Assembly: GCA_937920635.1 (NCBI GenBank)
Contig: CAKZUE010000088.1
Location: 1-33,606 of the forward strand
DNA: 33,606 nucleotides
Origin: an uncultured Bryobacteraceae bacterium
Lineage (GTDB): Bacteria > Acidobacteriota > Terriglobia > Bryobacterales > Bryobacteraceae
Direction of reading: 5' to 3'
How positions within the stretch are numbered: the first letter of the stretch is position 1; the number at the start of each line of letters is the position of its first letter. A model generated the notes under the pieces. That model was not told the origin of the DNA and ran no database searches. It saw nothing but the letters and a program-made list of their open reading frames with translations. Shown piece by piece: positions 9,780-18,880 of the stretch. The position numbers were made by a program, and so were the translations under genes.

Positions 9780-11039
9780 ATGGAGAATTACAAGCAACAG
9801 ACAAGCCGGCGGTCCTTTCTGGCCGGACCCGCCGCCGGCGCGGCGTTCACGATCGTGAAGCCGGAGCTCGTGCGCGGATGGGGCGCGGAAAAACTGAGAA
9901 TCGGTCTGGTCGGCTGCGGCGGCCGCGGCACGCAGGCCGTGGAAAACGCCATGACCGCCGATCCGGCGGTGGAACTCGTCGCCATGGCCGATGCGTTCGA
10001 AGACCGCCTCGAGGGCAGCCTGAAGCGGCTGCGCAATCTGCCCATCCAGGACCGCATCAAGGTGGATCCCGAGCACCGCTTCGTCGGCTTCGACGCTTAC
10101 GCCAAGCTCATCAGGTCCGGCGTGGATGTGGTCTTCCTGTGCACGCCCCCCGGCTGGCGCCCGCTGCACTTTGAAGCCTGCATCGAAGCCGGCAAACACG
10201 TCTTCATCGAGAAGCCTTTCGGCGTCGACCCCGTAGGCGTGCGCCGCATCATGGAAGCGGGCCGCAAGAGCGTGGAGAAGAAGCTCACCGTCGTCAGCGG
10301 GGCGCAGCGCCGCAGCGACCCGTTCTATCTCGAGAACGTGGACGCCATCAAAAACGGCAAGCTCGGCGAGGTGGTGGCGCTTTACGCCTACTGGGTCGGC
10401 ACTCCGGTGATTCAGCAGCGCAACGGGCGCAACCCGAAATGGGGCGAGTTCGAGTGGCAGCACCGCAACTGGTATTCGAACCTCTGGCTGTGCGGCGACC
10501 AGATCGTCGAGCAGCACCTGCACAACATCGACGTCTGCTGTTGGATCATGGGCGGCCCTCCGGTCAGCGTGGTGGCCAGCGGCGGCGCCGCGTGGCGTCC
10601 GGTGGGCGACGAGATTTACGGCAACATCTACGACCATGTCTCGTCGGACTTCGAGTTCGCCAACGGCGTGCGCATGTCGAGCTATTGCCGCCAGTATCCG
10701 CAGGGCAGCTACCAGCAGGTGAACGAGATCGTCGCCGGCAGCAAGGGACGCATGACGCTGAACCAGACCCGCGGCGGTCCCGGCTACGTCAACGAGCACG
10801 CCAAGCTCTACAAGTCCATCCGCGGCGATGGCCCGTACATCAATGAAACGCAGGCGGTGGCCGAGTCCACCATGACCTGCATCATGGGCCGCGAATCCGC
10901 CTACTCCGGGCTCAAGATCACCTGGGACATGATCATGAACTCGAAGCAGGATCTCATGCCCAAGGCCGAGCAGTACACTTACGACCTGAAGGCCGAGCCG
11001 ACGCCGTTCCCCGTCCCCGGCAAGTACAAGTTCATCTGA
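9780..11039 (+). CDS. Tat-exported Gfo/Idh/MocA family oxidoreductase
   Basis: A 419-aa protein. The N terminus carries a twin-arginine signal (TSRRSFLAG, then an Ala/Gly-rich stretch), so it should be exported folded with its cofactor. The Rossmann domain shows LRIGLVGCGGRGTQAV, the LVAMADAFEDR strand and VVFLCTPPGWRPLH, with the EAGKHVFIEKPFG signature of the family. The C-terminal alpha/beta domain includes the EQHLHNIDVCCWIMGG helix. The ATG at 9780 is preferred over GTG 9768, because GAGGTG, 9 bases upstream of the ATG, serves as its ribosome binding site. Family members oxidise or reduce sugars and inositols; the substrate is unknown. A strong terminator follows. Confidence 0.92.
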   Translation: MENYKQQTSRRSFLAGPAAGAAFTIVKPELVRGWGAEKLRIGLVGCGGRGTQAVENAMTADPAVELVAMADAFEDRLEGSLKRLRNLPIQDRIKVDPEHRFVGFDAYAKLIRSGVDVVFLCTPPGWRPLHFEACIEAGKHVFIEKPFGVDPVGVRRIMEAGRKSVEKKLTVVSGAQRRSDPFYLENVDAIKNGKLGEVVALYAYWVGTPVIQQRNGRNPKWGEFEWQHRNWYSNLWLCGDQIVEQHLHNIDVCCWIMGGPPVSVVASGGAAWRPVGDEIYGNIYDHVSSDFEFANGVRMSSYCRQYPQGSYQQVNEIVAGSKGRMTLNQTRGGPGYVNEHAKLYKSIRGDGPYINETQAVAESTMTCIMGRESAYSGLKITWDMIMNSKQDLMPKAEQYTYDLKAEPTPFPVPGKYKFI

Positions 11040-16651: not shown

Positions 16652-16729
16652 CGGGCCGTGGCGCAGCCTGGCTAGCGCGCTTGCTTGGGGTGCAAGAGGT
16701 CCCGGGTTCAAATCCCGGCGGCCCGACCA
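16652..16729 (+). tRNA. tRNA-Pro (anticodon GGG)
   Basis: A complete cloverleaf can be folded by eye. The acceptor stem CGGGCCG (16652-16658) pairs perfectly with CGGCCCG (16719-16725); the discriminator is A and CCA is encoded (16727-16729). The anticodon arm CTTGC-TTGGGGT-GCAAG gives anticodon GGG, reading CCC and CCU. The T arm CCGGG-TTCAAAT-CCCGG is canonical. C1-G72 with A73 is usual for bacterial tRNA-Pro. The low-GC nuclease-methyltransferase gene lies directly downstream, so this tRNA is a plausible integration site. Confidence 0.96.
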
Positions 16730-16985
16730 AAGGTTTCAAAGAGTTACATCCTTCCTCCTCTCCCCAGCTCTTCAAACTGGGTTCAAACTAAGTCCAACGG
16801 TCCGCCTGGTAGCCGTGGCACCGATGGGGTGCTTCGTCTTGTTGTTCTCTGTTTCGCGAGGCGGAGAGAATTCTGTTTTTCCCTACATATACGACCGGCG
16901 GATGCGTCCCAAGGCTCTCTGTTGCGGTCGATTGCGGTCGGGAAACGTGACATTCCGGTGTGCCGCCAAGATAAGATTGACCTGA

Positions 16986-18341
16986 ATGAGAATTGTCTCG
17001 ATTAACCTCAATCAACGGCTTAGCAACGAGCACGCACGGTCTCGTTTCGAGAGTTGGCTTCAGCTGATGAAGCCAGATCTGCTTATTGTCCAGGAACCTT
17101 GGCATCCCAACTGCGTCTCAATGCCCTCCCTGGCCGGATACCGCCTGGTCGAGTGCACGGTGCTGCTGGCGGCTTGGATTCAATCAAACGGTCCGGAGCC
17201 GCGTGCCGAAAACGGAAGCGAGAGGTGGCAAATCTTCCATTTTCCGGGCCTGGTAGTCCACCACGTCTACCTGTCACCTCACTCGTCGAAGGAGCGTCGT
17301 GAGCAGCTGACCAGTTTGAGACTCTTGATCGACCGGGGATGCCACAACGTGGTTTTAGGTGACTTCAATCTGGCGCCCAGACCGCAAGATGGCCTCTTCG
17401 GTGACAGACCAAGCAGCTTCACGGAACGCTCGGAGCGGAGGGCGTTCAATGAACTTCTGACCTCTGCTTGCCTGCTGGACGCGACTGCGGACGCCAGCGA
17501 GCCAGAGTTCACCTTCGAGCGCTGGCAGAACGGCAAGCCAATCCGGTTTCGGTGTGACCTTGCACTGCTCTCCGCCCGCTTGGGAGGCACAGCACGGGTT
17601 ATCTACGACCACTCAGTTCGGTCTGTCGGCGGTTTTACGGATCATAGCGCTCTCATCGTTGACCTCGATGCCCTGAAGCCCGGCGACGCGGAAACGCCTG
17701 CTGGGGCTTCGGCGGCCGACCAGGCAGCTGAATGGCAGAGGCCTTGCAGGACAATTCCAGACAACAATGCTGCGCGCGCGGCCAATGCGCACAAGACCGC
17801 CATCCGGCGATCTACCCCTTCACAGATTGCCCGATGCCTCAAGTCGCAGGGAATTTTCGCGGCACTGAACGTGAAGTCAATTCTCGATTTTGGATGTGGG
17901 TACGGCTTCGATGTACAGTATTACCGGTCGCTTGCACTCGAGGCAGACGGCTACGACGCTGAGCCTAAATTCGGGTGGCCGTTGCCAGCGCGCACGGATT
18001 ACGACCTTGTCACAATCGTATTCGTAGTGAACGTGCTGCCAACGCGTGAAGAGAGGCTGGCAGCGGTTCGAGCCGCGGCAGGTTTCGCTCGCCCGGGTGG
18101 TTATGTATTGGTGGCGGCCAGGTCGGTAGCAGCAGTCACCGCAGAAGCCAGGCGTGGCAGGTGGCGCAAGTTCAATGACGGCTGGATCTCATCAGCTTCC
18201 AAGGGCACCTTCCAGCGGGGCATTCCGCGGGAGGAGCTGGGATGGCTGCTCGGCGCAGCTGACCTTGAACTTGCAGATGTCAGTCTACGTCTGACCTCCG
18301 ATGTGTCGTGGCTTGTGGGCAGGAAACGGGGCGATCGATGA
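16986..18341 (+). CDS. EEP nuclease - phosphorothioation-type methyltransferase fusion
   Basis: A 451-aa two-domain protein. Residues 1-228 are an endonuclease/exonuclease/phosphatase domain with the catalytic set intact: Asn7 (RIVSINLN), Glu37 (LIVQEPW), Asp126 and Asn128 (VLGDFNL), Asp191 (RFRCDLALL) and the closing Asp219-His220 (TDHSAL). A polar linker (about 229-265) leads to a methyltransferase domain (266-448): HKTAIRRS, motif I LDFGCGYGFDV (300-310), DGYDAEP, a VVNVLP strand, ARPGGYVLVAAR and a GTFQRGIPREEL element (407-418). The HKTAIRR start and the GTFQ...EEL element recall the DNA phosphorothioation-associated putative methyltransferase family. Base composition is lower than in neighbours (58 of 120 bases G+C over 16981-17100). 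No dnd gene is nearby. The function of the fusion is unknown. Confidence 0.78.
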   Translation: MRIVSINLNQRLSNEHARSRFESWLQLMKPDLLIVQEPWHPNCVSMPSLAGYRLVECTVLLAAWIQSNGPEPRAENGSERWQIFHFPGLVVHHVYLSPHSSKERREQLTSLRLLIDRGCHNVVLGDFNLAPRPQDGLFGDRPSSFTERSERRAFNELLTSACLLDATADASEPEFTFERWQNGKPIRFRCDLALLSARLGGTARVIYDHSVRSVGGFTDHSALIVDLDALKPGDAETPAGASAADQAAEWQRPCRTIPDNNAARAANAHKTAIRRSTPSQIARCLKSQGIFAALNVKSILDFGCGYGFDVQYYRSLALEADGYDAEPKFGWPLPARTDYDLVTIVFVVNVLPTREERLAAVRAAAGFARPGGYVLVAARSVAAVTAEARRGRWRKFNDGWISSASKGTFQRGIPREELGWLLGAADLELADVSLRLTSDVSWLVGRKRGDR

Positions 18342-18880
18342 GACTTGATTCAGCCTTGGCCTGCTCGCCGCTGTCGAGCATGCGTGGGAAGCTTGTCAGT
18401 GACAGGTTTGTTTCGCGAGACGCAAAAAATCCCTAACAGATGCTTTCCATGCGCCCCATGAATACCGCGCCGAAGGTTGCCGAATCAAACATTGTAGAAT
18501 CGTGATGTTTTTTTCTTGAGCCTCACACCGTGCCGCGTTGGAGAATAAGTCGAACGCCTTCGCAACGTCTTCCCAGAGGCGCACGGGCCTGTCGAATCTA
18601 CTGCATCCCCTCCAATTCCAAGCGGTTGGTCGGCTCGTTGTCGCGGCCTTCGGCCGCTCCGCTTGCCGCACCGAACACGGGCACGGTCGCGACCCCGAAA
18701 TAGTGACAGGAACACAATTGCCCTTTTTCTGCGCCAGGAGAAACTGGCTCCTGCTTTTCGCTTCGGCCACCACACAGGCTGCGGCCGAAACTTCTCCGGC
18801 GGCATGGATCGGAAATAGCCTCGTGCAGCCAGCTTTCCATGCATGCTCCGGTTCCATAGGCCCGTGCGATACTCGTTGCC
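18342..18880. other. gene-poor stretch after the fusion gene
   Basis: No convincing gene in 539 bp. Short frames exist on both strands but lack family resemblance and ribosome sites. It holds A/T-rich patches (around 18424 and 18506), a REP-like repeat copy (18643-18670) and a small inverted repeat TTCGGCC (18762-18768) / GGCCGAA (18783-18789). It probably combines the distal end of acquired DNA with the upstream region of the BNR-4 gene. No copy of the tRNA 3' end was seen that would mark an att site. Confidence 0.5.
18643..18670 (-). repeat. REP-like GC-rich repeat, copy 1
   Basis: Read on the minus strand this 28-mer matches the 28-mer at 26954-26981 at about 24 positions, sharing the core AGCGGCCGAAGG. 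It contains the internal palindrome GCGGCCTTCGGCCGC. Both copies lie in gene-poor DNA. Confidence 0.5.

Follow-up and report, generated by a model that had tools for sequence, protein, structure and literature searches.

What does a protein do in which a nuclease-type domain and a methyltransferase share one chain, and to which system does it belong? This question is raised by a gene of an uncultured Bryobacteraceae bacterium, on a stretch of DNA that was analysed over its whole length of 33,606 nucleotides (hereafter the window). The original prediction described a 451-aa frame with a complete EEP active site followed by a methyltransferase resembling the TIGR04096 family, linked the protein to DNA phosphorothioation and regarded the fusion as undescribed.

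The gene occupies positions 16986-18341 of the plus strand. Its translation is a single open frame of 451 aa without internal stops, and the window genome holds one copy of it. An EEP domain of the exonuclease III / LINE-1 endonuclease type covers residues 1-228 (16986..17669, plus strand), as judged from the Pfam family Exo_endo_phos (PF03372, residues 6-209, E 1.1e-7, 32.3 bits against a cut-off of 24.5), invariant residues and Foldseek. Residues 229-267 (17670..17786, plus strand) form a linker that is predicted to be disordered, aligns poorly and varies in length. The remaining part, residues 268-451 (17787..18338, plus strand), is a predicted class I SAM methyltransferase domain, kin of the N-terminal domain of TIGR04096. 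Methyltransf_23 (PF13489) matches residues 294-429 above its cut-off (E 1.7e-6, 28.3 bits against 27) and the glycine-rich motif LDFGCGYG is found at residues 300-307, with HKTA at 269-272 and GTFQ at 407-410; SAM binding and methyl transfer are predicted on this basis. AlphaFold gives two confident domains (mean pLDDT 83.7, pTM 0.58) and a pLDDT below 50 for linker residues 231-270. Residues N7, N9, E37, D126, N128, D191, D219 and H220 do not vary in an alignment of 14 fusions, which comprises the window protein and all of the 14 others except L019. By computation, both domains are thus present with their predicted catalytic residues kept, as had been proposed. In six pairs of streptomycete homologues dN/dS ranges from 0.08 to 0.53 in both halves, which computationally indicates purifying selection on both halves in these homologues; the window gene itself is without a close pair. 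Given full-length homologues and these ratios, the fusion of EEP and methyltransferase is real and above chance.

The fusion is rare and scattered. As one chain it was found in 14 loci besides the window, all of them actinobacterial, nine from organisms named Streptomyces and two being Streptomyces plasmids. Recurrence in other genomes is hereby confirmed; since near copies are found among the loci (L002/L019 and L003/L013), the 14 loci do not represent 14 independent cases. By tblastn, two of 72,556 plasmid records match, over 96-97% of the query with about 41% identity (E 3e-66 and 4e-67). A genome scan with a single-protein query yielded no relative, and an alignment-based scan of genome contigs yielded 15 loci, of which 12 are actinobacterial fusions (L011-L021, L024), that of L020 with an altered methyltransferase tail. 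In an uncultured acidobacterium (L022) the halves lie in two overlapping frames, with 57% identity in the best segment, which points to a frameshift or to two genes. In a Marine Group I thaumarchaeote (L025), separate genes for the EEP (225 aa) and the methyltransferase (198 aa) overlap by 4 bases (10465-10468), and an alphaproteobacterial MAG (L023) shows the EEP only. Among 396 genomes sampled from the phylum of the window, the fusion is present in one, the window genome. Matches were obtained in two of 200 genomes of the thaumarchaeote's class, neither with a one-chain fusion, and in one of 240 genomes of the alphaproteobacterium's class, this being the EEP-only copy. When the window genome was compared with 60 relatives, the whole fusion was seen in the window genome only; five others match the methyltransferase part alone. 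A same-family genome (G009) retains a fragment matching residues 1-63, G455 has an EEP without methyltransferase and the thaumarchaeal genome G654 a methyltransferase without EEP. Identity as a phage gene was rejected, as neither phage records (tblastn) nor viral contigs (five queries) contained a relative.

With PF03372 above its gathering score and the Asn/Glu/Asp-Asn/Asp/Asp-His set in place, the N-terminal half falls into the EEP superfamily. The 50 Foldseek matches listed are all EEP proteins, LINE-1 and AP endonucleases being the best; among them are AP endonuclease / exonuclease III-type structures and LINE-1 endonuclease, and the regulator Crc is represented twice. In a profile search of PDB sequences, the first ranks likewise go to LINE-1 endonuclease and exonuclease III. 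The protein is no member of the exonuclease III family of NCBIfam (TIGR00633), scoring 22.7 bits against a cut-off of 99.05. At the place that we take to be that of the catalytic tyrosine of exonuclease III, with the role presumed for it there, the window protein has Y95 and both plasmid homologues have H. Twelve of the 14 fusions tested (L020 was left out) have an acidic EEP half (pI 4.9-6.9), and the values for L021 and L024 are 9.4 and 9.5. Unlike many DNA-binding nucleases, the EEP half is thus predicted to be mostly acidic, which together with the non-conserved tyrosine position speaks against a simple DNA nuclease.

Concerning the methyltransferase half, its best NCBIfam match is indeed TIGR04096 (dnd_rel_methyl), with residues 268-418 aligned to profile positions 4-142 of 478 (62.4 bits, E 3.3e-17), a better match than to the generic model. 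The resemblance described in the original prediction is therefore genuine. The membership cut-off of 150 bits is reached neither by the window protein nor by two homologues (49.8 and 50.8 bits); a true member, L042, scores 620.8 bits. The match ends at profile position 142, and the C-terminal domain of TIGR04096 (profile about 325-476) is absent from the window protein. Trees of 18-21 methyltransferase domains separate those linked to an EEP from three to four TIGR04096-type proteins with support of 100/99 to 100/100, so that the window domain lies outside the TIGR04096 clade; two rebuilds without long branches gave the same split. L043 and L020 were left out of the tree, and the G654 methyltransferase fell on the EEP-linked side where included. 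DndC was found in none of nine carrier genomes (G000, G454-G460, G654), some of which are incomplete. Among relatives with a TIGR04096-type protein, DndC is present in G047 and was not found in G041. The latter carries the TIGR04096-type protein with a desulfurase nearby, yet no DndC was found, and for this reason DndC absence should not weigh too heavily. Taking the clade split, the score below the cut-off and the absence of DndC together, the window methyltransferase is, by sequence, a relative and not a member of TIGR04096. The proposed link to phosphorothioation is not supported, since the match is below the cut-off, lacks the C-terminal domain and lies outside the clade and DndC was found in none of the nine carriers; membership in such a system was rejected and phosphorothioation is an unlikely setting for the fusion. 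The name of the TIGR04096 family occurs in PMC8416521. As a separate observation, the TIGR04096-type protein of G047 (L043, 5091-7772) apparently lies in two different frames, so the gene there may be broken or misassembled.

In Actinobacteria the fusion is accompanied by a recurrent gene set. Eleven of the 14 fusion loci contain the complete set, which encodes cysteine desulfurase, ATP-grasp-like, CWF19-like HIT, dCTP-deaminase-like (DCD-like) and MazG-like proteins. The DCD-like gene occurs in 13 loci, and so do the MazG-like gene and a LysR-type gene. The exceptions are L011, where the contig start lies inside the DCD-like gene, L015, where DCD-like, LysR and MazG-like genes alone were seen, and L020, with only partial desulfurase and LysR genes. 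Neighbours were compared across loci and named by Pfam, NCBIfam, PDB profiles and fold search. The desulfurase is an Aminotran_5 protein that matches the PADLOC models DndA and SspA with about 450 bits. The HIT protein is nearest to CWF19-like protein 1 (CWF19L1, E 7.1e-9), the dCTP-deaminase-like protein matches DCD (E 4.3e-23) and the dCTP-deaminase/dUTPase fold, and the MazG-like protein was assigned with E 3e-6. For the ATP-grasp-like protein there is no family match, and its name derives from its AlphaFold model (pLDDT 77.2) and a best Foldseek E of 1.2e-5, a weak fold match with TM by query of 0.24-0.43 among the 50 matches listed. In Kribbella (L021) the DCD-like domain is fused to YqcI/YcgG and the MazG-like domain to a PEP-utilising domain; a PEP-utilising dikinase-like protein is also encoded in a Pseudonocardiales locus (L024).

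Because these loci were found via the fusion, the association is seen from the fusion side. In a reverse check, the Kribbella ATP-grasp-like protein, searched against the 72,556 plasmid records, retrieved the same two records as the fusion. The ATP-grasp-like protein was found in two of 394 genomes of the class of G457, namely G457 and G1230. In G1230 a desulfurase gene (assigned by eye) adjoins the ATP-grasp-like gene and the contig ends just past the latter, so any fusion there is out of view. In the literature searched, the cassette is matched to no described system. With all cassette proteins as tblastn queries, the window gave matches to EEP and methyltransferase only, and the window genome has no match to the ATP-grasp-like or HIT profiles; the fusion there thus works without these partners or is a relic.

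The cassette has, at the level of sequence, a partial archaeal counterpart. On a contig of the thaumarchaeon G654 (L040, G654:C149, 1-3101), five genes stand in a row, encoding a HIT protein, an ATP-grasp-like protein, an unassigned protein, a protein corresponding to the C-terminal part of TIGR04096 and a methyltransferase. The contig begins within the HIT gene, which is therefore partial, and the TIGR04096 parts are split over two genes (profile 325-476 and profile 5-148). By tblastn, proteins of this row match actinobacteria with E 9.5e-9 for the ATP-grasp-like protein (Kribbella) and E 4e-4 to 8e-5 for the HIT protein. Against profiles built of actinobacterial rows only, the alignment spans 276 columns for the ATP-grasp-like protein (probability 96.7%, E 4.1e-10) and 100 columns for the partial HIT protein (probability 93.0%, E 3.4e-7). 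The strong G654 matches in the genome profile scans are expected by construction, since the thaumarchaeal proteins are within those profiles. Among 300 genomes of the class of G654, the ATP-grasp-like protein was found in G654 itself alone, and no EEP of the window type was found in G654 at E 1e-12. By eye the unassigned gene had been taken for MazG-like, an identity that was rejected, as tblastn, NCBIfam, PHROGs, PDB and hhalign (7.3%) do not support it.

Both the cassette and the solitary gene of the window show signs of mobility. On the Streptomyces plasmid NZ_CP108441.1, the cassette is accompanied by genes for a phage portal, a major capsid protein, ParA and ParB, on account of which the plasmid looks like a phage-plasmid. 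A single gene of 16.2 kb, annotated as DEAD/DEAH helicase, lies near its portal and capsid genes (L070, 462-16661; NZ_CP108441.1, 20461-36660). NZ_CP011666.1 encodes a MobF relaxase, transfer genes and type I-E CRISPR genes. Both carrier plasmids are classed as non-mobilizable in PLSDB.

In the window, the fusion gene is preceded by a tRNA-Pro (GGG) gene at 16652..16729 (plus strand, ARAGORN), to the 3' end of which the synteny with upstream DNA of the same genus extends. DNA matches in four same-genus genomes stop at window position 16729 (three genomes) or 16737 (one). The block from about 20375 on is found on another contig in G001 and G003 and more than 200 kb away in G002 and G004; the G003 contig stops at the tRNA, so its continuation is out of view. 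The spacer between tRNA and gene (16730..16985, plus strand) resembles the spacer in G009, where the EEP fragment lies behind a different tRNA end (Gly-like by eye); the local alignment scores 25, and the highest score among 500 letter shuffles was 17. In L022 a tRNA-Pro and a tyrosine-recombinase fragment lie within 1.3 kb of the gene, in a layout that differs from the window because the tRNA is oriented the opposite way. No integrase was found among ten window proteins (Pfam), and a search of the window for a second copy of the tRNA 3' end gave the tRNA itself alone. The GC3 of the fusion gene is 0.645, and eight window ORFs, two without family match and one without family test, have values of 0.658-0.851. 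As GC in 1-kb steps is equally low at 24-25 and 28-29 kb of the window, composition is weak evidence for transfer. From the synteny break, the spacer likeness and the comparison of loci, it is likely that the gene, solitary and just past the tRNA-Pro, was horizontally acquired. Two further observations concern the surroundings. The genes beside the EEP remnant of G009 (L010, 3006-4900, G009:C252), by eye dUTPase and ThyX, perhaps belong to a phage-like insertion. Between the fusion gene and the BNR-repeat gene of the window, a short stretch at about 18627-18747 has matches of about 25-58 bases on numerous contigs of its own genome and looks like a dispersed intergenic repeat.

Concerning a role in defence, the fusion matches no PADLOC model at E up to 10. 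Among ten cassette and archaeal proteins, the desulfurase alone gave strong PADLOC matches (DndA, SspA), and P0008 a marginal one (mad2, E 0.0055). Among the 69 flanking ORFs, hits to defence models occur singly (DRT, AbiEi, mads, MzaA and others, from 36 families of which 25 are listed); as the survey was made without a control set, enrichment cannot be claimed. In Pfam the same 69 ORFs match 92 families as scattered singles, including two ATP-grasp proteins, and no peptide-synthetase or polyketide families are among the 25 listed. Outside the cassette, the thaumarchaeal EEP/methyltransferase pair lies between ThiD-ThiN and ThiC genes (L025, 8406-12501), and the EEP-only gene of the alphaproteobacterium is tightly placed between PEP-mutase/methylisocitrate-lyase-family and NAD-synthase genes (L023, 6905-9332). 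Such copies may have a metabolic role, and together with the missing PADLOC match they count against a pure defence reading. Homologues in ordinary metabolic operons had been named as a point against the original prediction. This point does not apply to the actinobacterial copies, which lie in a nucleotide/sulfur cassette, but is partly supported by the neighbours ThiC in the thaumarchaeote and NAD synthase in the alphaproteobacterium. The assumption that the fusion is undescribed agrees with the literature searched, in which no description was found (most subscription journals and preprints lie outside it); in passages of PMC8569181 the word "methyltransferase" does not occur.

Taken together, we tentatively favour, with somewhat less than even confidence, a two-domain enzyme that acts on nucleotides or nucleic acid and is carried between organisms by mobile DNA. 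This mobile tailoring enzyme possibly stems from an undescribed modification or defence cassette. In its favour are the 14 loci, the split pair of L025, the cassette in 11 of 14 loci, the retrieval of the same two plasmids in the reverse check and the archaeal row of L040, as well as the DNA endonucleases nearest to the EEP, the ATP-grasp fold, the likeness of the HIT protein to CWF19L1, the plasmids, the rarity (one of 396) and the break at tRNA-Pro. Against it are the acidic EEP half, the H at the tyrosine place, the lack of PADLOC and phage matches, the ThiC and NAD-synthase neighbours and the low TM of the ATP-grasp match. We infer that the cassette would produce or remove altered forms of a nucleotide or of a nucleic-acid end. 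The desulfurase would mobilise sulfur, the ATP-grasp protein would join groups, and the HIT and MazG proteins would hydrolyse phosphoanhydride or phosphoramidate bonds. The EEP half would cut a phosphodiester and the methyltransferase half would methylate the product or a partner site, so that all parts together would amount to a module for modification or defence. In the window genome, the solitary EEP-methyltransferase would act on a substrate already in the host. A more specific version is rather doubtful. In it, the fusion would serve as effector or as tailoring enzyme in a nucleic-acid modification or defence system so far undescribed, with a HIT/ATP-grasp-like/methyltransferase core common to Actinobacteria and thaumarchaea and present on a phage-plasmid. 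Together with the desulfurase, the dCTP-deaminase-like and the MazG-like protein it would add or take away a novel nucleotide modification linked to sulfur or to an amino acid.

Several other explanations have to be considered. It is quite possible, if on balance not probable, that the cassette makes a nucleotide-derived small molecule, such as a nucleoside, a phosphoramidate or a sulfur-containing natural product, with the EEP trimming a phosphodiester intermediate, the methyltransferase tailoring it and solitary copies serving self-immunity or detoxification. The ATP-grasp-like protein, the LysR-type regulator in 13 of 14 loci, the PEP-utilising dikinase-like genes (L021, L024), the YqcI/YcgG domain of L021, the Streptomyces-named organisms of nine of 14 loci and the EEP half, acidic in 12 of 14, would suit such a pathway. 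However, the MazG-like and dCTP-deaminase-like proteins indicate nucleotide pools, DNA endonucleases are the closest EEP folds, a thaumarchaeote and a plasmid bearing phage genes have related genes, and the 25 Pfam families listed of 92 include no peptide synthetase or polyketide family. These same EEP folds (exonuclease III, AP endonuclease and LINE-1 endonuclease) would fit DNA or RNA end-processing or repair, in which the EEP would clear abasic sites or 3' ends that are blocked and the methyltransferase would label the end or shield it, with no role in defence. The HIT partner closest to CWF19L1 and the existence of copies without HIT and ATP-grasp-like partners agree with this, but a score of 22.7 bits is far under the exonuclease III cut-off of 99.05, and the fusion is very rare and apparently mobile, unlike housekeeping repair, so that we hold end-processing to be clearly unlikely.

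It appears improbable that the fusion is a compact restriction-modification protein that limits itself, with an EEP half cleaving DNA and a methyltransferase half giving protection in connection with phosphorothioation. One chain does hold two catalytic domains, the methyltransferase is homologous to a dnd-associated family and a DndA/SspA-like desulfurase is part of the actinobacterial cassette. Against these points stand the nine carrier genomes, none with DndC, and the make-up of the protein, in which EEP, linker and methyltransferase fill the 451 aa and no target-recognition domain was seen. Moreover, the halves are separate genes in L025, and the EEP of G455 and the methyltransferase of G654 were each seen without the other half. 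Finally, the gene of the window genome could be a passenger without current role, as its solitary position at a synteny break and the mere fragment in the same-family relative G009 would allow; with the frame intact and all named catalytic residues present, we consider this very improbable.

If the cassette acts on nucleic acid, as in the mobile-enzyme reading favoured here, it would represent new modification or defence chemistry with a cutting and methylating protein, bacterial and archaeal relatives and a copy on a phage-like plasmid. Even if a small molecule is made, a so far unnamed gene set is defined which can be tested in ordinary Streptomyces. The role of the TIGR04096 methyltransferase also becomes more approachable, as both parts of this family lie beside HIT and ATP-grasp-like genes in the thaumarchaeal row.

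In comparison with known systems, the cassette partners match the families of CWF19-like HIT proteins and of the nucleotide-pool enzymes dCTP deaminase and MazG, whereas their combination with an EEP-methyltransferase, an ATP-grasp-like protein and a desulfurase was not found described in the literature searched. With the Dnd and Ssp systems the actinobacterial cassette shares a DndA/SspA-like cysteine desulfurase, the only one of the Ssp genes compared; it differs in that DndC was not found in carriers and the neighbours are ATP-grasp-like, HIT, DCD-like and MazG-like genes. TIGR04096 proteins have in common with the fusion an N-terminal methyltransferase domain, homologous at 62 bits, with the TA(I/M) motif and the glycine-rich D-x-GCG motif, but the fusion shows no match to their C-terminal domain, remains below the cut-off, falls into another clade (100/99), occurs in carriers without DndC and has an EEP attached. 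The exonuclease III/AP/LINE-1 endonuclease group shares with the window EEP the fold and the catalytic Asn, Glu, Asp-Asn, Asp and Asp-His set; by comparison, the window EEP is a domain of about 228 aa that scores below the xth cut-off, varies at the tyrosine position and is fused to a methyltransferase.
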